Shown piece by piece: positions 1 to 30,229 of a DNA stretch of 64,000 bases (the stretch's first letter is position 1; the number at the start of each line of letters is the position of its first letter). The position numbers and the translations under genes are program-made. The notes beneath the pieces were generated by a model. That model was given only the letters and a program-made list of their open reading frames with translations. It made no database searches and was not told where the DNA came from. Where the stretch lies: positions 248,001-312,000 of the forward strand of contig CAMZGS010000001.1 in the NCBI GenBank assembly GCA_947306475.1, written 5' to 3'. This stretch comes from an uncultured Comamonas sp. (GTDB lineage: Bacteria; Pseudomonadota; Gammaproteobacteria; Burkholderiales; Burkholderiaceae_C).

Positions 1-3000
1 GGTGCCGATCTCTGGCTTGCGCTCAATCGAATCACCCGCCAGTAATGGCGGGTGTGGATTGAAACATCACATGATCGTTATTTACGGCAAGCCTGCCGAT
101 GAATCACCCGCCAGTAATGGCGGGTGTGGATTGAAACCCGTGCGCTTCGAGCGTGACGGCGGCAAGGCCGCGAATCACCCGCCAGTAATGGCGGGTGTGG
201 ATTGAAACGTCCTCCAGCGCGAACAGGCTTCGGTCGGTCGCGGAATCACCCGCCAGTAATGGCGGGTGTGGATTGAAACTACGGGCTGCAAGTAAAGGCA
301 GAGCGTGCCCGAGGAATCACCCGCCAGTAATGGCGGGTGTGGATTGAAACACCGTCGTGTGCTGCGTGACAGCCAGGTCAAACCAGGAATCACCCGCCAG
401 TAATGGCGGGTGTGGATTGAAACCTTTTTCCCCAAGCATTGGCGACAGGGTTGCACAAGAATCACCCGCCAGTAATGGCGGGTGTGGATTGAAACATCAC
501 ATGATCGTGATTTACGGAAAGCCCGACGAGAATCACCCGCCAGTAATGGCGGGTGTGGATTGAAACCGGCTGGGTGGAAGCTGGTGCCGGTTGAGCCGAC
601 GAATCACCCGCCAGTAATGGCGGGTGTGGATTGAAACCCTCTATGGCCATTACCCCAATGCGGTGCGTCGTGAATCACCCGCCAGTAATGGCGGGTGTGG
701 ATTGAAACACGTTGCACGAATCGTGGTCAACCCTCAAACGCTGAATCACCCGCCAGTAATGGCGGGTGTGGATTGAAACACCGACGATCAGGTGGTTATT
801 TCGCGCGATGGCACTGAATCACCCGCCAGTAATGGCGGGTGTGGATTGAAACGTGGCTGGGCGACTGCTCGACGGCCACGTAAGTGGAATCACCCGCCAG
901 TAATGGCGGGTGTGGATTGAAACAGGCCGGGGAGGAAAGGAGCGCAGCCGACAGGCTGAATCACCCGCCAGTAATGGCGGGTGTGGATTGAAACATGTGC
1001 TTGACCCGCACGCCGCCGTCCATCATTGAGGAATCACCCGCCAGTAATGGCGGGTGTGGATTGAAACCTGGGTTGCAAGCTGAAGGTTGCAAGTTGCATG
1101 CGAATCACCCGCCAGTAATGGCGGGTGTGGATTGAAACGATAGCAGGAAGATGTACTCATGCGCCTTGGTGCGAATCACCCGCCAGTAATGGCGGGTGTG
1201 GATTGAAACCTCCCAGACCTGCTCGGCTTGTGGCGCATTGCCCGGAATCACCCGCCAGTAATGGCGGGTGTGGATTGAAACATTTAGCTATCGGCTGGCC
1301 ACAGGGATCGTTCGCAGGGAATCACCCGCCAGTAATGGCGGGTGTGGATTGAAACCAGTCGCGCGATGTCTTGCGCCCGCGTGGCAAAGGAATCACCCGC
1401 CAGTAATGGCGGGTGTGGATTGAAACGCCATCAGTGCCGATCTCTGGCTTGCGCTCAATCTGAATCACCCGCCAGTAATGGCGGGTGTGGATTGAAACCA
1501 AATCTGGGCACGCCGTGCCAGCAACTTGCAGGAGAATCACCCGCCAGTAATGGCGGGTGTGGATTGAAACTGTGCGGGCAGTAATGGTGCTGCCTTCGCC
1601 CTCGAATCACCCGCCAGTAATGGCGGGTGTGGATTGAAACACGATCAGTGACGCCAGCCGGGACGTGCTGTATCGAATCACCCGCCAGTAATGGCGGGTG
1701 TGGATTGAAACAATCGCCACCAGCATGGTTTAGCCGCCCGAAGCTGAATCACCCGCCAGTAATGGCGGGTGTGGATTGAAACACCACCGGCGAAAGCAAG
1801 GTGGAGACCCACTACAGAATCACCCGCCAGTAATGGCGGGTGTGGATTGAAACCAGCGCGGCCTCTGCTTCTTCCAGCGCAGCACGTAGAATCACCCGCC
1901 AGTAATGGCGGGTGTGGATTGAAACTCCTTGGCGTTGATAACAATCTGGAGAGGTTTGAAGAATCACCCGCCAGTAATGGCGGGTGTGGATTGAAACCTT
2001 TGTGCCCGTGCCTGCCGATCCCGGCGCAGGCAGAATCACCCGCCAGTAATGGCGGGTGTGGATTGAAACCAGCTGGGCATCCTGGACTTCATGTCTGACG
2101 ACCGAATCACCCGCCAGTAATGGCGGGTGTGGATTGAAACTTCCAGCGCAGCACGTAGCGCGCTGGTGTCGGCGCGAATCACCCGCCAGTAATGGCGGGT
2201 GTGGATTGAAACATCGCATGATCGTTATTTACGGCAAGCCTGCCGATGAATCACCCGCCAGTAATGGCGGGTGTGGATTGAAACAAAAATCTGACCCTTT
2301 ACCGCATCGACGCCGCTTGAATCACCCGCCAGTAATGGCGGGTGTGGATTGAAACGAGCAGGGCCAGGCTGTGATGTGGGATGCCAGCGGAATCACCCGC
2401 CAGTAATGGCGGGTGTGGATTGAAACATTTGTGCCCGTGCCGGCAGACCCCGGTGCAGGTGAATCACCCGCCAGTAATGGCGGGTGTGGATTGAAACCAC
2501 TCTGCCCATGGCAACCTGGGCAGTGCCGCACGAATCACCCGCCAGTAATGGCGGGTGTGGATTGAAACACCGGCTGGGCTGTGCGTGAGGGCAGTCAAGA
2601 CGTGAATCACCCGCCAGTAATGGCGGGTGTGGATTGAAACAAGTGGGAAAAAGGCAAGCCCGAAACCGTGCGCCGAATCACCCGCCAGTAATGGCGGGTG
2701 TGGATTGAAACATGATGCGCGCTCTGCTGTTGAGAGACGCGCGTCGAATCACCCGCCAGTAATGGCGGGTGTGGATTGAAACGCCGACAAGCGCATACCG
2801 CACAGCTACAAAACCGCAGAATCACCCGCCAGTAATGGCGGGTGTGGATTGAAACCTCTCAATCCATGCCACGGCTGTAGCGCTGCTGCGAATCACCCGC
2901 CAGTAATGGCGGGTGTGGATTGAAACTCGTATGCCCTGGTGCGCGATGCTGCGCGCGCAGGAATCACCCGCCAGTAATGGCGGGTGTGGATTGAAACTTG

Positions 3001-5791
3001 GGGATGCGCTCGATGAACGCACGCAGCGCAGGAATCACCCGCCAGTAATGGCGGGTGTGGATTGAAACGGTGTGAATCTCAGCACAACACAGCACAACGA
3101 AAAGAATCACCCGCCAGTAATGGCGGGTGTGGATTGAAACCTGGCTCTCTCCCGACAGCAGCACGTCAATGTCGAATCACCCGCCAGTAATGGCGGGTGT
3201 GGATTGAAACACCTCGGACAGGTCGCCCGTCATCAGCTCATAGGGGAATCACCCGCCAGTAATGGCGGGTGTGGATTGAAACATCCGCAAGCACATCCAG
3301 AAGATGGGCGGCGTGGGAATCACCCGCCAGTAATGGCGGGTGTGGATTGAAACAAAGCGGTGGCCGTCATCGAAGCGGCGCTGCGTGGAATCACCCGCCA
3401 GTAATGGCGGGTGTGGATTGAAACGTCGAGGGCGGTATAGCCTTCCAGGATCCGCAGGGAATCACCCGCCAGTAATGGCGGGTGTGGATTGAAACATCTG
3501 CCCCCGAACCTGTCAAAGCCTCGGTAGGCGAATCACCCGCCAGTAATGGCGGGTGTGGATTGAAACAGTGCTGCAATGTGCTGGTCCAGCTGGGCCTGGG
3601 GAATCACCCGCCAGTAATGGCGGGTGTGGATTGAAACCGCCGTGCTGAACCTGCCTGTGCCTTGCAACCGCGAATCACCCGCCAGTAATGGCGGGTGTGG
3701 ATTGAAACCATCCTGGCGGTGAGGTATGCCATGCTGCGTCAGGAATCACCCGCCAGTAATGGCGGGTGTGGATTGAAACTACGACTTCGCGCGCCATGTC
3801 CAGCAGCGTCAGGCGAATCACCCGCCAGTAATGGCGGGTGTGGATTGAAACTTTTGCGCCAACGAATCAGCGCACTGGCTTCACGGGAATCACCCGCCAG
3901 TAATGGCGGGTGTGGATTGAAACGTCTAGCTTGGTGGGGATCAGCTCCACAAGAGCTAGAATCACCCGCCAGTAATGGCGGGTGTGGATTGAAACAATCC
4001 CGAAGCGCTCTGCATCATGAAAGCGCTTTGAATCACCCGCCAGTAATGGCGGGTGTGGATTGAAACACCATCAGATCGCCTGCACGCTTCGCAAGAGCCT
4101 GGAATCACCCGCCAGTAATGGCGGGTGTGGATTGAAACATTTGTGCTGCGGCTGGTGCTGATGCGATGCAGCGAATCACCCGCCAGTAATGGCGGGTGTG
4201 GATTGAAACGCCTTGCTGACCTGCGGGCTGGCTGCGCGTGCCTGGAATCACCCGCCAGTAATGGCGGGTGTGGATTGAAACGGGTTTGAGATTGAGATGC
4301 TGCTGCGGCGGTGCTGAATCACCCGCCAGTAATGGCGGGTGTGGATTGAAACGCACGCTCGGGCAGGCTGATGATGCGGCGGTACAAGGAATCACCCGCC
4401 AGTAATGGCGGGTGTGGATTGAAACAGCGCGTACTGGTTGGCCACCACCATTAGCGCTGGAATCACCCGCCAGTAATGGCGGGTGTGGATTGAAACGTGC
4501 TTGAAGACCTTGAAGGTCACTTCGTTGCTGTGAATCACCCGCCAGTAATGGCGGGTGTGGATTGAAACTCGTAGCGGTCACTCATCGCCCCGGCCCTCCT
4601 TGCGCGAATCACCCGCCAGTAATGGCGGGTGTGGATTGAAACTCGTGCTCGTCCACGATGCTGGCCCATGTGCGCTGGAATCACCCGCCAGTAATGGCGG
4701 GTGTGGATTGAAACCATGTAACCGATCCATACGAAAAAGGGATTGCGGCGAATCACCCGCCAGTAATGGCGGGTGTGGATTGAAACAAGTCCTGCGCCTC
4801 ACGCTGCGAGCGTGCCAGCGCGAATCACCCGCCAGTAATGGTGGGTGTGGATTGAAACTCTCCAGATGGGGCGGTGGCTTATCGGGGGGCCTGAATCACC
4901 CGCCAGTAATGGCGGGTGTGGATTGAAACGTCCCACTTGGCGCGGCGCTGGGCAGTAGCAATCGAATCACCCGCCAGTAATGGCGGGTGTGGATTGAAAC
5001 TCGTATGACGACAGCCACAAGCATGACGACCAAACGAATCACCCGCCAGTAATGGCGGGTGTGGATTGAAACTTGGCGAATCTCTGGCTCGTCCTGTGCA
5101 TCCGCCATGAATCACCCGCCAGTAATGGCGGGTGTGGATTGAAACTAAAAAAGAGGAGCCGAAGTCTTCCGGCCTCGTGGAATCACCCGCCAGTAATGGC
5201 GGGTGTGGATTGAAACTGCCAGCTGCGCAGATTGGCGTGCACAAGTGCCGCGAATCACCCGCCAGTAATGGCGGGTGTGGATTGAAACTCGTAGCGGTCA
5301 GTCATTGCTCGCCCTCCCGCCCGGAATCACCCGCCAGTAATGGCGGGTGTGGATTGAAACACCGCAGAACAGGGCGCATTTGCGGCGTTTAACCGAATCA
5401 CCCGCCAGTAATGGCGGGTGTGGATTGAAACAACAAAACCCACGCTGCCACCGCTTGAAACGCAAAGAATCACCCGCCAGTAATGGCGGGTGTGGATTGA
5501 AACAGGATGGCTGCATGCCAATCGGAAGCGCCGCCAAAGAATCACCCGCCAGTAATGGCGGGTGTGGATTGAAACGCAGCCATGCGTGCTGCAGCGGAAC
5601 AAGCCAAAGCCGAATCACCCGCCAGTAATGGCGGGTGTGGATTGAAACGATCGCTGCGCGATGCCATCCCCAGCAAGCCCCGCGAATCACCCGCCAGTAA
5701 TGGCGGGTGTGATTGAAACAACAGCAATGCGCAGATCATGCGTGTGGTGGGCGAGAATCACCTGCCAGTAACGGAGGGTGTGTGGAAATGA
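1..5791 (+). CRISPR. CRISPR array, 80 intact repeats plus one decayed terminal repeat
   Basis: The 37-nt repeat recurs every 70-74 bases from 29 to 5720. It reads GAAT, an 8-bp stem CACCCGCC/GGCGGGTG around the loop AGTAAT, then the 3' handle TGGATTGAAAC. I count 80 canonical copies, an 81st degenerate copy at 5755, 80 complete spacers of 33-37 nt, and a truncated spacer at 1-28. Repeats are almost invariant: the one starting at 4822 has a C-to-T change in the stem, and the one at 5684 lacks one G of the handle. Decay towards the right and the ATTGAAAC end put the leader, the newest spacers and probably the cas genes left of base 1. An 11-nt handle ending GTGGATTGAAAC is usual in subtype I-C, but 37 nt is long for I-C (32-33 nt), so the subtype is unresolved; type III systems also use ATTGAAAC-ending repeats. 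Confidence 0.99.
5755..5791 (+). repeat. degenerate terminal CRISPR repeat (trailer end)
   Basis: The last repeat-like unit keeps GAATCACC and CCAGTAA but has several substitutions (T for C in the left stem arm, C for T in the loop, A for C in the right arm) and a rearranged 3' end. Terminal-repeat decay marks the leader-distal end of an array, so this sets the array polarity. The next 116 bases before the first gene contain no further repeat or recognisable feature. Confidence 0.85.
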
Positions 5792-5907: not shown

Positions 5908-7074
5908 ATGCCCATCAATCAACCGCGCATTGCCTTGCTCATCGACGCCGACAATGCGCCGGCGGACAAGGTGGATGCCATCCTCACCGAGCTGTCCACG
6001 CTGGGGGAGATCAGCATCCGCCGCATTTACGGCAACTGGACCAAGCCGCACCTGAGCAGTTGGCAGGGCAAGCTGCTCGATTACGCACTGCGGCCCATGC
6101 AGCAGTTCGATTACGCCAAGGGCAAGAACGCTACCGACATGGCCATGACGGTGGACGCTATGGAGCTGCTCTACACCGAGCGCCCGGATGCTTATGGCAT
6201 CGTCTCCTCGGATGCGGATTTCACGCCGCTGGTCATGCATCTGCGTGGCAAAGGGGCGCAGGTCTATGGCTTTGGTGCGGCGCAGACGCCCAAGGCGTTT
6301 GTCAATGCGTGCTCGCGCTTTTTGTATCTGGAGTCGCTGGGGGAGACGGAGGAGTCGGCGCCCGTAGTAGATGAAGATACAAATTTTGAAGCATCTTCCG
6401 CGCGTCTGTACTCGGTTTCAGTTGGAAATCATGATGAAAAGACCGATAGCAAAGCGGAAGCAGCTATCAAATCTGTGAATTCCGTACGTGTGCCCACGCC
6501 CCAGCTGCGTCAGGACACGCGGCTGATGAATTTGCTGCGCTCTGCGGTGCAGGCCTTGCAGGATGACGATGGTTGGGTGCCGGTGAGCGTGTTGCGCACG
6601 CAGATTGGCAACAAGGCCTCGTTCGACCCGCGCAACTATGGCTACCCCACCTTGACCAAGCTGCTGGTGGCCGTGGAGGACTTTGATTTCAAGAACGAAG
6701 GCACGCCTCTGGTGGCCGTGCGTGCCAGAAAGCAGCTGGCGGCGGCCAAGGTGGCAGGCCCCGGTGCGGTGACTTCCTGGCCGATTGCCCAGCAGAGGCA
6801 GCAGGTGAAATGGCTGCCGCCGCAGATCTTTGCGTTGCGCTCGGTGCTGCTGCAGGTGGCGGTTTCGCGCGTGCCCCTTGAGGATGTGTTGCAGGCGGTG
6901 CCTGAGCTGGCCCAGGGGCAGGCTTGCGCCCTGGGCGCTGTGGCGGGGCGTCTGCGCGAGCGTGGTTTGCTGCTGCCTTCGCAATCGGCACTGCGGATTC
7001 TGGAGCGCTTTCCGCGTGCTTTTGTGGTGGACCTGAAGACGACGCCCCAGTCGGTGCGTTACGTGGCGTCATGA
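5908..7074 (+). CDS. NYN-domain ribonuclease-like protein with OST-HTH/LOTUS domain
   Basis: A 388-residue protein. Residues 1-150 form a NYN (PIN-like, LabA/DUF88) domain: LLIDADNAP near the N-terminus, KNATDMAMTVDAME in the middle and VSSDADFTPL carry the acidic residues expected of a metal-dependent RNase. Residues about 200-265 (LMNLLRSAVQAL to DFKNEG) fit an OST-HTH/LOTUS RNA-binding domain. The C-terminal ~100 residues are helix-rich and may be a second degenerate OST-HTH. The linker at 6364-6490 is AT-rich and low-complexity, unlike the rest. The start has an AGGAAA ribosome site 7-12 bases upstream. It overlaps the next gene by ATGA. The substrate is unknown; proximity to the CRISPR trailer end is probably incidental. 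Confidence 0.88.
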   Translation: MPINQPRIALLIDADNAPADKVDAILTELSTLGEISIRRIYGNWTKPHLSSWQGKLLDYALRPMQQFDYAKGKNATDMAMTVDAMELLYTERPDAYGIVSSDADFTPLVMHLRGKGAQVYGFGAAQTPKAFVNACSRFLYLESLGETEESAPVVDEDTNFEASSARLYSVSVGNHDEKTDSKAEAAIKSVNSVRVPTPQLRQDTRLMNLLRSAVQALQDDDGWVPVSVLRTQIGNKASFDPRNYGYPTLTKLLVAVEDFDFKNEGTPLVAVRARKQLAAAKVAGPGAVTSWPIAQQRQQVKWLPPQIFALRSVLLQVAVSRVPLEDVLQAVPELAQGQACALGAVAGRLRERGLLLPSQSALRILERFPRAFVVDLKTTPQSVRYVAS

Positions 7075-24193: not shown

Positions 24194-27100
24194 ATGGCAT
24201 TCAAGAAAGTAACGGCACTACTGACCGCAGCGGTATCGGTGGTATGTATGGCGCCCGCCTGGGCGTTGCAGGTTCAAAAGCTCACTCCCCAGGGCACGGT
24301 CGATGGCGTGCGCCAGGTGGTGCTGCAAACCGATCAGGACGCCGTGCGCTTTGGCGATCCGCAGGCGCCGGCACCAGCGCAAGTCACCTGCACCACTGCC
24401 CGCAATGCCGAAGGCACGGGCCGCTGGAACAGCGCGCGCGAATGGGTCTGGCAGTTTGCTCGCCCGGTGCCCGGTGGCGAGCGCTGCCAGGTGCAACTCA
24501 ATAAGTCATTCAAATCGCCTTCAAACGAAGTACTGGCGGGCGCTTCCAGCTACAGTTTTGAAGTCCAAGGTCCACGCATTACCCGCATTTGGCCGCAGAC
24601 TTACCTGCCCATCGACGAAGAACAGGTGTTTGTGTTGCGCCTGAACGCCCCCGTCACACGCGACAGCCTGTTGCAGCACAGCCACTGCCGCAGCCCCGAG
24701 GTGGGCGAGCGCATCCCCCTGCGCTGGGTGGATGGGACAGAGGCCAGCAGCATTTTGCAGGGTCTGAATCTGGCCAGGCAGGCGGACAAGGAGCCCGGCC
24801 AATGGGTGCTGGTGAGCTGCAACCGACGCCTGACGCCCGGCAGCGACGTGCAGCTGATCTATGGCGCCGGTGTGCAGACCCCCACGGGCGTGACCAACCG
24901 CAAGCGTGAGGTGCTGGACTTCTCCGTGCGCCAGGCCTTTACCGCCGAAATGAGCTGCGAACGTGAACGCGCCAATGCCGGTTGCCTGCCCGTGCGCCCG
25001 GTGCGCCTGAGCTTCAGCGCCCCGGTGGACAAGAAGCTGGCCGCGCAAGCGCGTCTGGTGGGGGCCGGTGGCAGCATCAGCCCCAGCTTGCAGGGCGATG
25101 AGAGCACCACCGACACGCTGGAGTTCGCCCCGCCCCTGCAGCCGTCCAGCAGCTACCGCCTGGAGCTGCCCGCCGATCTGGTGGATGAGCTGGGTCGCCC
25201 GCTGACCAATGCCGCCAGCTTCCCCCTCACCATCCAGACTGGCGATGCGCCTGCCTTGGCCAAATTTGCCAGCGACAGCTTTGGCGTGCTGGAGCGCTAT
25301 GCCCAGGGCCGGGACAGTGAAGGCGCTGTGCTGCCGCTGACCGTGCGCCACATCGAAGGCATGGATCAGCGCGATGGCGCTGCCCAGCTGCGTGACCTGC
25401 ACCTGACGCAGGATGCCGACATCATCGCCTGGTGGAACAAGCTGCAGCGCTACCGCTGGGGCAGCGTGTCGCGCAGCCGGGCCGCGCAGGATGTGCGTGG
25501 CCCGCTGCCCGCGGCCCTGCCTGCCCCCACCGATGAGGACGAGCCCGACCTGCGCGAAGTCGATGAGCACTCCATCTCCACGCGCAGCATCTCCCTGCTG
25601 AACGGCCAGCCGGGCGTGCAGCAGGTGCTGCTGCCCGCGCCCAAGGAGGGTGATCCGCGCCCCTTTGAAGTGATTGGCGTGCCCCTGCCGCAGCCCGGCT
25701 TTCACGTGCTGGAGCTGGACTCTCCCCGTCTGGGCGCCGCCCTGATGGATGAACGCCTGGGCGCGCAGCGGCGCATGTATGTGCGCACCTCGGCACTGGT
25801 GACCAATCTGGCCGTGCACGGCAAGCTGGGCAAGGAAGGCTCTGCCGTGTGGGTCACGCGCCTGGACAACGGCCAGCCTGTGGCCGGGGCACAGGTGCGC
25901 GTCTCCGATTGCTCCGCCACCGTCCATGCCCAGGGCGTGACCAACGAACAGGGCGTGCTGTTGCTGCCCGAGCTGGTGCGCGATGCCCCACGGTGTAGCA
26001 ACCACAGCCAAAGCGGCAACTGGTTCATCAGCGCCCGTCAGGGCGACGACCTGGCCTTTGTCTGGAGCGACTGGCAGCGCGGCATCGAGCCGTGGCGTTT
26101 CAACCTGCCCACCGGCTGGGGCCAGGAGCCCGAGCTGGTGGCGCACAGCGTGCTGGATCGCAACCTGGTGCGCGCGGGCGAAACCGTCTCCATGAAGCAC
26201 TTTGTGCGCAAGCAAAGCCTGCACGGTCTGGAGCAGCCGACGCAGTGGCCCAACGTGGCACGCATCACCCATGTGGGCAGCGGCCAGGAGTACCGCCTGC
26301 CGCTGCAATGGAGTGCCAACGCAGCCGGGGCCCGACATGCGCTGAGCACCTTCACCGTGCCGCCCGGCGCCAAGCTGGGCCAGTACCGTATCGAGCTGCT
26401 CTGGGAAGAACAGGGCGGCAAGGCCAGTGCCGCGCGGGACGAGGATGCCAACGGCTACACCAGCAGCCTGCCCTCGGGCCAGTTCCGCGTGGAAGCCTTC
26501 CGCCTGCCGGTGCTGGAAGGCAGCGTGCAGCCCATGGACAAGGCCCCACTGGTGCAGCCCCAGGCGCTGCCCGTGGCGGTGAGCCTGCAGTACCTCAACG
26601 GCGGCTCGGCCAAGGGCCAGCCGGTGCAGGTCAGTGCCCTGTTGCGCGACCACGATGTGCAGTTCGAGCGCTGGCGCAAATTCAGCTTTTCTGCCCCCAG
26701 CACCGACACCGGCGACGAGCGCGCCAGCGATCTGGAGGAAGAAGCCGCTACTGCCGAGAACAGCACCCTGCTGGCCGACAGACTGCCCGTCACCCTGGAC
26801 GCCCAGGGCCAAGGTCAGGTGCAACTGCCGGCCGTGGGCCAACTGCAGCGCCCGCGCCAGTTGCTGCTGGAAGCCAGCTTTGCCGACCCCAATGGCGAGG
26901 TCCAGACCCTGCGCAGCACCCACACCCTGTGGCCCGCCGCCGTGCTGCCCGGCATCACGGTGGAGAACTGGGCCTCGGTGCAGCGCAAGCTCAAGCTCCA
27001 GGCCGTGGCCGTGGACACCCAGGGTCGCCCGCAGGCCGGGGTGGCCATGCAGGTGGATGCCGTCCTGACCACCACCACCAGCACGCGCAAGCGCCTGGTG

Positions 27101-30100
27101 GGGGGCTTCTACAGCTACGACAACCACACTCAGCGCACCCCGCTGGGCAAGCTGTGCAGCGGCAAGAGCGACAGCAGCGGCCTGCTGCACTGTGAAGTCA
27201 GCCTGACCCAGCCAGGGCAGGTGGAGCTGATCGTCAGCACCCAGGACAAGAACGGCCACCGGGCCCAGGCCAGCGATACCGTCTGGGTCACCGGCCAGGG
27301 TGAGCTGTGGTTTGGTGGCCAGGACCACGACCGCATGGACCTGCTGCCCGAGCAGCCCAGCTACGCCGTGGGCGACACCGCACGCCTGCAGGTGCGCATG
27401 CCCTTCCGCGAAGCCACCGCCCTGGTCAGCGTGGAGCGCGAAGGCGTGCTGCACACCGAAGTGGTGCAGCTCAAGGGCACCGACCCCGTGCTGCAACTGC
27501 CCGTGCAGGCCGGCTGGGGGCCGAATGTGTATGTCAGCGTGCTGGCGCTGCGTGGGCGTCTGTACGAAGTGCCGTGGTACAGCTTCTTCACCTGGGGGTA
27601 CAAGGCGCCCCTGCAGTGGTGGAACGCCTACTGGCACGGCGGCAAGGAATACGTGGCGCCCACCGCCATGGTCGATTTGAGCAAGCCCAGCTTCCGTTTG
27701 GGCGTGGCCGAACTCAAGGTACAGGACCCCAGCCAGCGCCTGCAGGTGCAGGTGCAGGCCGACAAGCCGCGCTACCAGGTGCGTGAGCGCGCCCAGGTCA
27801 GCATCCAGGTGCTGCGTGGCGATGGCCAGCCCGCGGCCAACGCCCAGGTGGCCGTGGCTGCTGTGGACAAGGCCCTGCTGGAGCTGATGCCCAACACCAG
27901 CTGGAACCTGGCCGACGGCCTGTGGCGCCGCCGCGACTGGAACGTCGATACCGCCACCGCACAGATGGAAGTGGTGGGCCGCCGCCACTATGGCCGCAAG
28001 GCCGCAGCCCCCGGCGGCGGTGGCGGGCGCAGCAACACGCGCGAGCTGTTCGACACCCTGCTGCTGTGGCAGCCGGAAGTGCAGCTTGACGCCCAGGGCC
28101 GCGCCCAGGTGCAGGTGCCACTGAACGACTCGCTCACCAGCTTCGAGATCGTCGCCATTGCCGACGAAGATGCCGGCCACTTTGGCACCGGCAGCACCAC
28201 CATCGCCACCACGCAGGATCTGCAACTCATCAGCGGCCTGCCGCCGGTGGTGCGTGAGGGCGACACCTTCACTGCCATGTTCACCGTGCGCAACACCACC
28301 GGGCAGGACATGCAGGTGCGCCTCAAGCCCCAGGCCATCAACCTGGAGCTGCCCGCGCAGAAAGTGCATGTGCCCGCTGGAGACGCTGCCACCGTGCAAT
28401 GGCAGGTACAGGTGCCCATCGCCCTGGCGCAAGCCAGCGAAGGGCAGTTGCACTGGAGCGTGCAGGCCCAGGACAGCGTCAGCGGCACCAGCGACACCAT
28501 GGAAGTGCGCCAGCGTCTGTTGCCGGCCGTGCCCCTGAGCGTGCAGCAGGCCACCTTGCAGCAGATCCAGGGTCGCCTGGAAGTGCCCGTGCAATGGCCC
28601 GCCCAGGCCGAGCCCGGCAAGGGCGGCCTGCGCCTGACCTTCAGCGATCGCCTGGCCGATCCCGAGGAGGGCGTCCCCGGCCTGCGCGACTGGTGGCAAA
28701 GCTACCCCTACAGCTGCCTGGAGCAAACCACCAGCCGCGCCGTGGGTCTGAACGACGCGCGCCTGTGGACCGAGCAGATGGAGCGCCTGCCCACCTATCT
28801 GGATGAGGACGGACTGGCGCTGTACTTCCCCGCCCAGGCCGGTCGCAGCCCCGAGGGCAGCGACACCCTGACCGCGCACCTGCTGACCCTGTCGCACCAC
28901 ATGCGCCAGATGGATGCACGCTTCACCCTGCCGGATGTGGAGCGCGAGCGCATGCAGCAGGCGCTGATCGCCTTTGTCACCGGCAAGCTGCAGCGCAAGT
29001 TCTGGAGCCCGCGCCCCGACCTGACGCAGCGCAAGCTCGCCGCCATTGCCGCCCTGGCACTGGATGGCAAGGCCACGCCCGCCATGCTCGACAGCCTGGA
29101 CATCGACCCCACTGCCTGGCCCACGCACAGCGTGCTCGACTGGTTGCAGGTGCTCGAACGCGTGCAGGTGCCGGGCCGCGAGCAATTGCAACAACAGGCC
29201 TGGCAGCTGCTGCGCAATCGTCTCTCCTACCAGGGCACGCAGCTGGTGTTCTCCACCGAAGCGCAGGACCGCTGGTGGTGGTTGATGCAAGGCCCGGAAG
29301 TCAACGCCGCGCGCCTGCTGCTGGCCACCATCGGCCACAGCGACTGGGACAGCGAGCGCGCGCGCATCGTCACCGGCCTGCTGGCACGCCAGCGCAACGG
29401 CCACTGGGGCACCACCACTGCCAACCTGTGGGTCGGGCTGGCGCTGCGCCAGTTCAGCCAGCGCTATGAAAGCGAGCCGGTCAATGGCGACACCACCGCC
29501 CTGCTCAACGCCAGCACGCAAACCCTGCACTGGGCTGCGCTGCACGACAAGGCCAGAGCCTCCAAGGCCGCTGCCGCACAGGCGCAGACCCAGCCCAGCC
29601 GCCTGCTGCCCACCGGCAGCAGCGCTCTGGATGCCCCCTTGCCGCCCAACACCCTGTTCCTGCCCTGGGGCGAGCACGGTCGCAGCCAGCTGAGCGTCCA
29701 GCACCGAGGCACCGGCCAGCCCTGGGTGGCGCTGCAATCCATTGCTGCCGTGCCGCGCACCCAGGCCTTTGATGCGGGCTACCGCCTGCGCAAGACCGTC
29801 ACCGCCCTGCAAGGCGCCAGGCTCGACGCCCTGCAACGTGGCGACATGGTGCGCGTGCGCCTGGAGGTTGAAGCCAGTGCCGACATGACCTGGGTGGCCC
29901 TGACCGATCCCATCCCCGCCGGCGCCACCATCCTGGGCAGCGGCCTGGGCCGTGATTCGACCGTCGCCACCGCCAGCGAAAACCAGGGCGATACCTGGAG
30001 CGGCCCCAGCTTCGTCGAACGCGGCCAGGACAGCTACCGCGCCTACTGGAGCTACCTGGGCCAGGGCAGCGCCAGCGTGGAATACACCCTGCGCCTGAAC

Positions 30101-30229
30101 AACCCAGGCAACTTCGCCCTGCCGCCCTCGCGCGTGGAAGCGCTCTACGCGCCGGAAATGTTTGGCGAGCTGCCCAACACCCCATGGAACATCGGTGGCG
30201 GCGACCCAGTCAGCACGGCCACCGAATGA
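24194..30229 (+). CDS. giant bacterial alpha-2-macroglobulin (YfhM-like)
   Basis: 2011 residues. The signal peptide ends at AWA; the Cys in it has no good lipobox, so unlike E. coli YfhM the protein is probably not lipid-anchored. A series of MG-type beta domains is followed by a bait-like segment and the thioester motif CLEQ (Cys at residue 1508) in a helical thioester domain (about 1490-1760), then a C-terminal receptor-like domain. A Gly-rich stretch around residue 1275 (PGGGGGRSNTRELF) precedes the MG7-like region. Bacterial A2Ms trap proteases in the periplasm and usually sit beside pbpC (PBP1C). Here pbpC is about 4.8 kb downstream on the same strand, with accessory genes in between. 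A ribosome site (AGGAG) precedes the ATG. Confidence 0.93.
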   Translation: MAFKKVTALLTAAVSVVCMAPAWALQVQKLTPQGTVDGVRQVVLQTDQDAVRFGDPQAPAPAQVTCTTARNAEGTGRWNSAREWVWQFARPVPGGERCQVQLNKSFKSPSNEVLAGASSYSFEVQGPRITRIWPQTYLPIDEEQVFVLRLNAPVTRDSLLQHSHCRSPEVGERIPLRWVDGTEASSILQGLNLARQADKEPGQWVLVSCNRRLTPGSDVQLIYGAGVQTPTGVTNRKREVLDFSVRQAFTAEMSCERERANAGCLPVRPVRLSFSAPVDKKLAAQARLVGAGGSISPSLQGDESTTDTLEFAPPLQPSSSYRLELPADLVDELGRPLTNAASFPLTIQTGDAPALAKFASDSFGVLERYAQGRDSEGAVLPLTVRHIEGMDQRDGAAQLRDLHLTQDADIIAWWNKLQRYRWGSVSRSRAAQDVRGPLPAALPAPTDEDEPDLREVDEHSISTRSISLLNGQPGVQQVLLPAPKEGDPRPFEVIGVPLPQPGFHVLELDSPRLGAALMDERLGAQRRMYVRTSALVTNLAVHGKLGKEGSAVWVTRLDNGQPVAGAQVRVSDCSATVHAQGVTNEQGVLLLPELVRDAPRCSNHSQSGNWFISARQGDDLAFVWSDWQRGIEPWRFNLPTGWGQEPELVAHSVLDRNLVRAGETVSMKHFVRKQSLHGLEQPTQWPNVARITHVGSGQEYRLPLQWSANAAGARHALSTFTVPPGAKLGQYRIELLWEEQGGKASAARDEDANGYTSSLPSGQFRVEAFRLPVLEGSVQPMDKAPLVQPQALPVAVSLQYLNGGSAKGQPVQVSALLRDHDVQFERWRKFSFSAPSTDTGDERASDLEEEAATAENSTLLADRLPVTLDAQGQGQVQLPAVGQLQRPRQLLLEASFADPNGEVQTLRSTHTLWPAAVLPGITVENWASVQRKLKLQAVAVDTQGRPQAGVAMQVDAVLTTTTSTRKRLVGGFYSYDNHTQRTPLGKLCSGKSDSSGLLHCEVSLTQPGQVELIVSTQDKNGHRAQASDTVWVTGQGELWFGGQDHDRMDLLPEQPSYAVGDTARLQVRMPFREATALVSVEREGVLHTEVVQLKGTDPVLQLPVQAGWGPNVYVSVLALRGRLYEVPWYSFFTWGYKAPLQWWNAYWHGGKEYVAPTAMVDLSKPSFRLGVAELKVQDPSQRLQVQVQADKPRYQVRERAQVSIQVLRGDGQPAANAQVAVAAVDKALLELMPNTSWNLADGLWRRRDWNVDTATAQMEVVGRRHYGRKAAAPGGGGGRSNTRELFDTLLLWQPEVQLDAQGRAQVQVPLNDSLTSFEIVAIADEDAGHFGTGSTTIATTQDLQLISGLPPVVREGDTFTAMFTVRNTTGQDMQVRLKPQAINLELPAQKVHVPAGDAATVQWQVQVPIALAQASEGQLHWSVQAQDSVSGTSDTMEVRQRLLPAVPLSVQQATLQQIQGRLEVPVQWPAQAEPGKGGLRLTFSDRLADPEEGVPGLRDWWQSYPYSCLEQTTSRAVGLNDARLWTEQMERLPTYLDEDGLALYFPAQAGRSPEGSDTLTAHLLTLSHHMRQMDARFTLPDVERERMQQALIAFVTGKLQRKFWSPRPDLTQRKLAAIAALALDGKATPAMLDSLDIDPTAWPTHSVLDWLQVLERVQVPGREQLQQQAWQLLRNRLSYQGTQLVFSTEAQDRWWWLMQGPEVNAARLLLATIGHSDWDSERARIVTGLLARQRNGHWGTTTANLWVGLALRQFSQRYESEPVNGDTTALLNASTQTLHWAALHDKARASKAAAAQAQTQPSRLLPTGSSALDAPLPPNTLFLPWGEHGRSQLSVQHRGTGQPWVALQSIAAVPRTQAFDAGYRLRKTVTALQGARLDALQRGDMVRVRLEVEASADMTWVALTDPIPAGATILGSGLGRDSTVATASENQGDTWSGPSFVERGQDSYRAYWSYLGQGSASVEYTLRLNNPGNFALPPSRVEALYAPEMFGELPNTPWNIGGGDPVSTATE

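Follow-up and report, generated by a model that had tools for sequence, protein, structure and literature searches.

Recapture of one site by a single CRISPR array has been described for other systems. In the type I-C array of Legionella pneumophila Toronto-2005, older and newer spacers fall on overlapping sites of LME-1, the older ones being mismatched in the seed or the PAM and the newer ones matching, and its authors offer escape and then primed acquisition as one reading (PMC5071653). That paper writes the PAM as GAA on the downstream side, complementary to the TTC found here, and quotes a Legionella repeat that ends in GTGGATTGAAAC, as does the repeat of the present array. Both systems are type I-C; however, the Legionella case concerns a known target, tested interference and two pairs of spacers, whereas the present one comprises six groups with a third-position bias and comes from sequence analysis alone. 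Spacer position has likewise served as a clock of virus change under CRISPR targeting in Sulfolobus islandicus arrays facing SIRV (PMC6452263), although that study was population-level and had sequenced viruses, and the part of it consulted describes no sibling trio within one array. TTC is regarded as the more canonical type I-C PAM, and in its TTC PAM and subtype cas genes our locus is like the canonical type, with no distinguishing feature found here against the account consulted (PMC8482600). Repeated capture of one site is therefore ordinary, already described behavior, which this array shows several times; in the portion of the open-access literature consulted, no earlier report of this particular array was found.

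We analyzed a 64,000-nucleotide stretch (hereafter, the window) comprising positions 248001-312000 of contig 1. The window opens within a type I-C CRISPR array whose start lies 828 bases before the window, and the part inside the window occupies 1..5789 on the + strand, with the leader end at the left and degenerate terminal repeats at the right. When the window and the upstream stretch were taken together, the array comprised 93 repeats and 92 spacers, the latter numbered here from the leader. Ninety of the 93 repeats are identical; the variants lie at 4822, 5684 and 5755, and the two at 5684 and 5755, which are the last of the array, are degenerate. A neighboring and complete type I-C operon (cas3, cas5, cas8c, cas7, cas4, cas1 and cas2) lies upstream of the array on the same strand. 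The effector genes cas8c, cas7c and cas5c matched TIGR01863 (497.6 bits), TIGR02589 (401.9 bits) and TIGR01876 (191.3 bits), and cas3, cas4, cas1c and cas2 matched TIGR01587 and TIGR01596, TIGR00372, TIGR03640 and TIGR01573, respectively, all above the cut-off. The non-coding stretch between the cas genes and the array was taken as the leader. New spacers enter a CRISPR array at its leader end. Because the cas genes and the putative leader sit upstream of the array, new spacers would enter it from the left, and by this polarity we assumed that a smaller window coordinate means a later acquisition. Just past the trailer end, the + strand encodes a protein with NYN and OST-HTH/LOTUS domains (5908-7074). 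Further along the same strand lies a gene for a bacterial alpha-2-macroglobulin-like protein of 2011 residues (24194-30229), and a 1771-codon open frame on the strand opposite to it (24521-29836) is probably a composition artefact.

The original prediction concerned three spacers said to target the same phage gene start with synonymous differences. Their positions were given exactly, and the three do share their first base and a reading frame: spacer 13 (66..100, 35 nt), spacer 19 (496..529, 34 nt) and spacer 43 (2213..2247, 35 nt), all on the + strand. By leader polarity, spacer 43 is the oldest, spacer 19 the middle one and spacer 13 the newest. Spacers 13 and 43 both read MIVIYGKPAD, as had been proposed; for spacer 19, the proposed MIVIYGKPDE gets its final E by counting in the G that opens the following repeat, and the spacer itself, ending in GA, reads MIVIYGKPD(D/E). 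Counted from the PAM-proximal end, spacers 13 and 19 differ at positions 14, 23, 29 and 31, spacers 19 and 43 at positions 4, 14, 23, 29 and 31, and spacers 13 and 43 at position 4 only. Three of the four changes between spacers 13 and 19 are silent third-position changes, in agreement with the prediction, but the fourth, a non-synonymous GCC/GAC (Ala/Asp) change at position 31, had gone unmentioned. Position 4 lies just upstream of the ATG, so that the MIV peptide is the same in spacers 13 and 43; note that this ATG is a candidate start codon, the five bases before it being too few to decide. Shuffling all 92 spacers 20 times gave a highest score of 15, compared with pairwise local scores of 33, 26 and 24 within the trio, and the resemblance is therefore not due to chance.

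An all-versus-all comparison showed that the trio is one of six sibling groups, which account for 13 of the 92 spacers: 13/19/43, 12/32, 40/46, 1/31, 76/86 and 38/42. Sibling scores ranged from 17 to 33, above the maximum of 15 in the 20 shuffles, and the next real pair scored 13. The 5' boundary is identical in five of the six groups. In the remaining one, the 3' end of spacer 38 (1854..1888, + strand) is common with the start of spacer 42 (2141..2175, + strand); a TTC triplet precedes the common part, so that the overlap reveals TTC immediately ahead of where spacer 42 begins. The five same-boundary pairs that were compared differ at 1-6 positions each over 34-35 nt. Neighbors of sibling spacers are unrelated to one another, with local scores of 4-8 in 13 neighbor comparisons.

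We then asked where in the codon the differences fall, using the best open frame of each pair. In four sibling pairs, 17 of 19 differences occupy third codon positions, whereas randomly placed differences averaged 10.05 with a maximum of 15, and none of 5000 permutations, in each of which the choice of best frame was redone, reached 17. Specifically, besides the three of four in pair 13/19, third positions hold all six differences between spacers 40 (1998..2032) and 46 (2427..2460), both on the + strand, in the frame FVPVPADPGAG. The same is true of five of the six differences between spacer 31 (1356..1389, + strand) and spacer 1, upstream of the window, in the reverse frame FATR(D/A)QDIARL. 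All three differences between spacer 12 (1..28, + strand, beginning at -5 outside the window) and spacer 32 (1427..1461, + strand) are also third-position changes in the reverse frame IERKPEIGTDG; for this pair, forward and reverse frames fit equally, and the source gene may lie on either strand. The count covers neither 13/43, with its single difference, nor 19/43, which is not independent, nor 76/86, nor the offset pair 38/42. The one difference in pair 13/43 would be a second-position change if coding, and its inclusion gives 17 of 20. Pair 76/86 has no third-position bias: its 13 ungapped differences lie mostly upstream of the start codon, and the best frame places 5 of 13 at third positions.

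Protospacers of other spacers in the array show that TTC is the main PAM. For spacer 14 (138..171, + strand), the 100% matches are conjugative plasmids, namely Variovorax sp. PBL-H6 plasmid 3 and pEN1; spacer 15 (209..242, + strand) matches the same Variovorax plasmid at 100%, and the PAM is TTC for both spacers. The two sites lie 2.4 kb apart on the same strand of the one Variovorax plasmid (conjugative, MOBP, MPF_T). Such a pair of adjacent spacers from one plasmid is what would be seen if the first capture had prompted the second. Matches to spacer 15 alone occurred in uncultured-bacterium and Hydrogenophaga plasmids, and a match to spacer 14 alone in pEN1. Among phages, spacer 20 (567..600, + strand) matched Serratia phage Eta with 3 mismatches and TTC, and Pseudomonas phage JBD25 with 2 mismatches and an adjacent TGC. 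Spacer 28 (1139..1172, + strand) matched Bordetella phage vB_BbrM_PHB04 in a DNA methyltransferase gene, with 4 mismatches and TTC, and Salicola phage CGphi29 with 3 mismatches and an adjacent TTG. Spacer 82 matched ACG-M12 with 7 mismatches and TTT at the place of the PAM. In addition, a 21-base site of a Klebsiella phage (PV891801.1, 115651-115671) was matched by 26 pieces of the first 1.8 kb of the array, each at a chance-level E of 7, presumably via the array repeat.

One sibling pair led to viral DNA. Spacer 76 (4569..4605, + strand) matched viral contigs L035 with 1 mismatch and L042 with 3 mismatches; in both, the site has TTC and lies where an open frame M(S/T)DRYEKIRQAL begins, and the frame beginning at the spacer 76 site reads MSDRYEKIRQAL. 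For its sibling, spacer 86 (5289..5323, + strand), only related sites were found in viral contigs, at MTDR-type starts and with 5-9 mismatches. A pattern scan for the pair, in which the pattern itself demanded the GAA corresponding to the PAM, returned 18 viral contigs whose frames open M(S/T)DRYE and differ in their downstream parts. From these matches, the pair appears to map to a single type of gene start found repeatedly among viral contigs, spacer 86 doing so only weakly. A further spacer, 67 (3924..3958, + strand), matched L035 with 2 mismatches and TTC; its site lies on the same strand as that of spacer 76, the two starts being 142 bases apart. In a shuffled-spacer control over 574,699 bases, no match appeared at up to 8 mismatches, although nearly all of these loci had been fetched through a match or a pattern, so that the control is fair only where a match was not itself the reason for fetching its locus, chiefly for spacer 67 in L035. 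When eight open frames of L035 were compared with PHROGs, five corresponded to a repressor, a Sak4-like annealing protein, a single-strand binding protein, a DNA methyltransferase and an integrase, two fell into families of unknown function and one was without a match. Because of the repressor, the integrase and the other PHROGs matches, L035 was taken for a temperate phage fragment. MTDR-type gene starts also repeat within single contigs, in L029 at 1117, 2487 and 3350 and in L034 at 794 and 1657 (reverse strand), possibly as a reused 5' module. These two contigs have two sites in common at an equal spacing and could be nearly identical DNA.

Pattern scans of IMG/VR and of GTDB genomes, searches of GenBank phages and PLSDB plasmids, and a search of 399 genomes of the family at up to 3 mismatches found no protospacer of the trio, the array itself being the sole match in the last. 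The predicted match to one homologous gene in different phages thus did not appear in the IMG/VR pattern scans or among the GenBank phages. Specifically, one trio pattern returned nine IMG/VR contigs with 11-16 mismatches to the spacers, none with TTC, another returned 18 contigs with 13-20 mismatches, and the other trio patterns returned none. Note that these scans used exact degenerate patterns, which a more diverged homologue would escape. Against phages, no record was obtained for spacer 13 at E 1 or for spacer 19 at E 10; against plasmids at E 10, the two gave 4 and 7 records with best E values of 4 and 0.9, which we regarded as chance. Spacer 43 was searched within the array stretch, through patterns and, by script, in fetched loci only, and the 18 viral records with the 76/86 pattern, scanned whole, contained no trio site. 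For the other groups, degenerate-pattern scans of IMG/VR for the 40/46, 12/32 and 1/31 targets returned nothing, and spacers 86, 32 and 46, searched singly against phages, gave 8, 3 and 6 records with best E values of 0.4, 4 and 1, likewise regarded as chance.

The trio peptide had also been likened to the N-terminus of phage thioredoxin/glutaredoxin-like proteins. MIVIYGKP is encoded in nine IMG/VR contigs, six of which continue with CxxC and have Cys at residue 10, and three of which appear to carry it inside a different protein with Trp there. Of the CxxC type, two of the six were tested against Pfam and both matched Glutaredoxin (PF00462); one of the three of the other type was tested and gave nothing at E 0.01. 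Residue 10 in the trio is D (spacers 13 and 43) or D/E (spacer 19) and not the Cys of the six glutaredoxin-like hits, so that the glutaredoxin identity, for which MIVIYGKPxC would be expected, is disfavored. The MIVIYGKP peptide is too short to identify the gene.

Taken together, the trio very probably represents one PAM-defined site that was captured again, in separate events, from diverged relatives of one invader, and we infer such relatives as the source of the trio itself. The Cas4-Cas1-Cas2 proteins choose prespacers beside a PAM and trim them there. Siblings would share their first base because these proteins cut at the PAM, every capture of the site then beginning at the same base. If the source is protein-coding sequence under purifying selection, captures would differ mostly at third codon positions, and the differences would be mainly silent because selection acts on the source gene; older mismatched spacers may moreover have promoted the later captures by priming. 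As for the prediction of repeated capture at one PAM in diverged phages, a PAM-fixed site and diverged coding DNA are supported by the third-position count, the TTC and the gene start under spacer 76. The phage part is unproven, because spacers 14 and 15, which directly follow spacer 13 on its older side, match conjugative plasmids at 100% and no trio protospacer was found. The linear sense of an evolving lineage is not supported, since the sequences line up as 43, 13, 19, whereas the array, read from the oldest of the trio to the newest, has 43, 19, 13. With polarity assumed, this order reads near-A, B (spacer 19), A, and at least two alleles would therefore have alternated instead of changing in a straight line. 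A broader reading, which we consider rather doubtful, is that the array keeps allele-specific copies of a small number of conserved gene sites that bear a PAM, having drawn in turn on two variants of the same element that circulated together, and so forms a time series of alternating invaders and not of one escaping lineage.

Not every observation favors repeated capture. The single base between spacers 13 and 43 could, alone, be a mutation or a sequencing error, TGC, TTG and TTT also stand at the place of the PAM, and spacer 86 is without a close match. In addition, a search of 61 genomes for related arrays matched the own genome and one other genome of the genus only, whose 23-spacer array (G437:C9:119688-121366, L071) has a related repeat in several versions; it contains no siblings and has no spacer in common with the present array, the best score being 15 on the opposite strand. 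Even so, that the siblings arose by chance resemblance or as an assembly artefact is scarcely credible, given sibling scores that all exceed the shuffle maximum and an array lying inside one 467,857-base contig. It is also very improbable that one spacer-repeat unit was duplicated inside the array and the copies then mutated. Spacer duplication in arrays is documented (PMC8047081), and spacers 13 and 43 are one base apart; however, 90 of 93 repeats are unchanged while siblings differ by up to 6 of 34 positions, which makes mutation within the array look too slow, and a mutational origin yields no third-position bias. Block duplication is disfavored because the neighbors of siblings are unrelated.

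Paralogous copies of one gene start on a single element, each captured once, would be an unlikely origin for the siblings as a whole. Such paralogues are a live alternative for pair 76/86 because L029 has three spacer 86-like sites within 2.3 kb, one with TTC, and M(S/T)DRYE starts precede differing downstream parts in the 18 contigs. Against a paralogous origin of the trio, spacers 13 and 43 are nearly identical and yet 30 spacers apart, which a repeated meeting with the element fits better. Repeated capture may itself have proceeded by escape and priming, the element having evaded an older spacer through mutation in the seed and that spacer, now mismatched, having primed capture of the new version; we put this forward tentatively, as a refinement of repeated capture and not as its competitor. 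Seed positions 1-5, 7 and 8 are those of type I-E. Differences fall on them in four of the five pairs, namely 13/43 (position 4), 12/32 (1, 4 and 7), 1/31 (1 and 4) and 40/46 (1). The Legionella type I-C precedent (PMC5071653) and the adjacent same-strand spacers 14 and 15 from one plasmid point in the same direction. However, the seed holds 7 of 20 differences against an expected fraction of 0.205, which is not a significant enrichment (P = 0.096), pair 13/19 has no seed difference, and the differences are mostly synonymous, as under neutral divergence. Escape followed by priming is thus possible and unproven, with seed differences in four of five pairs that are not enriched.

At present, the array is a tidy example of known CRISPR behavior. 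It also constitutes an ordered, codon-resolved set of snapshots of mobile elements that are absent from the matches in the collections searched. If the source of the trio were found, the order of the spacers would show whether one lineage was escaping or variants were alternating, and it would also show whether mismatched old spacers prime their own replacement.
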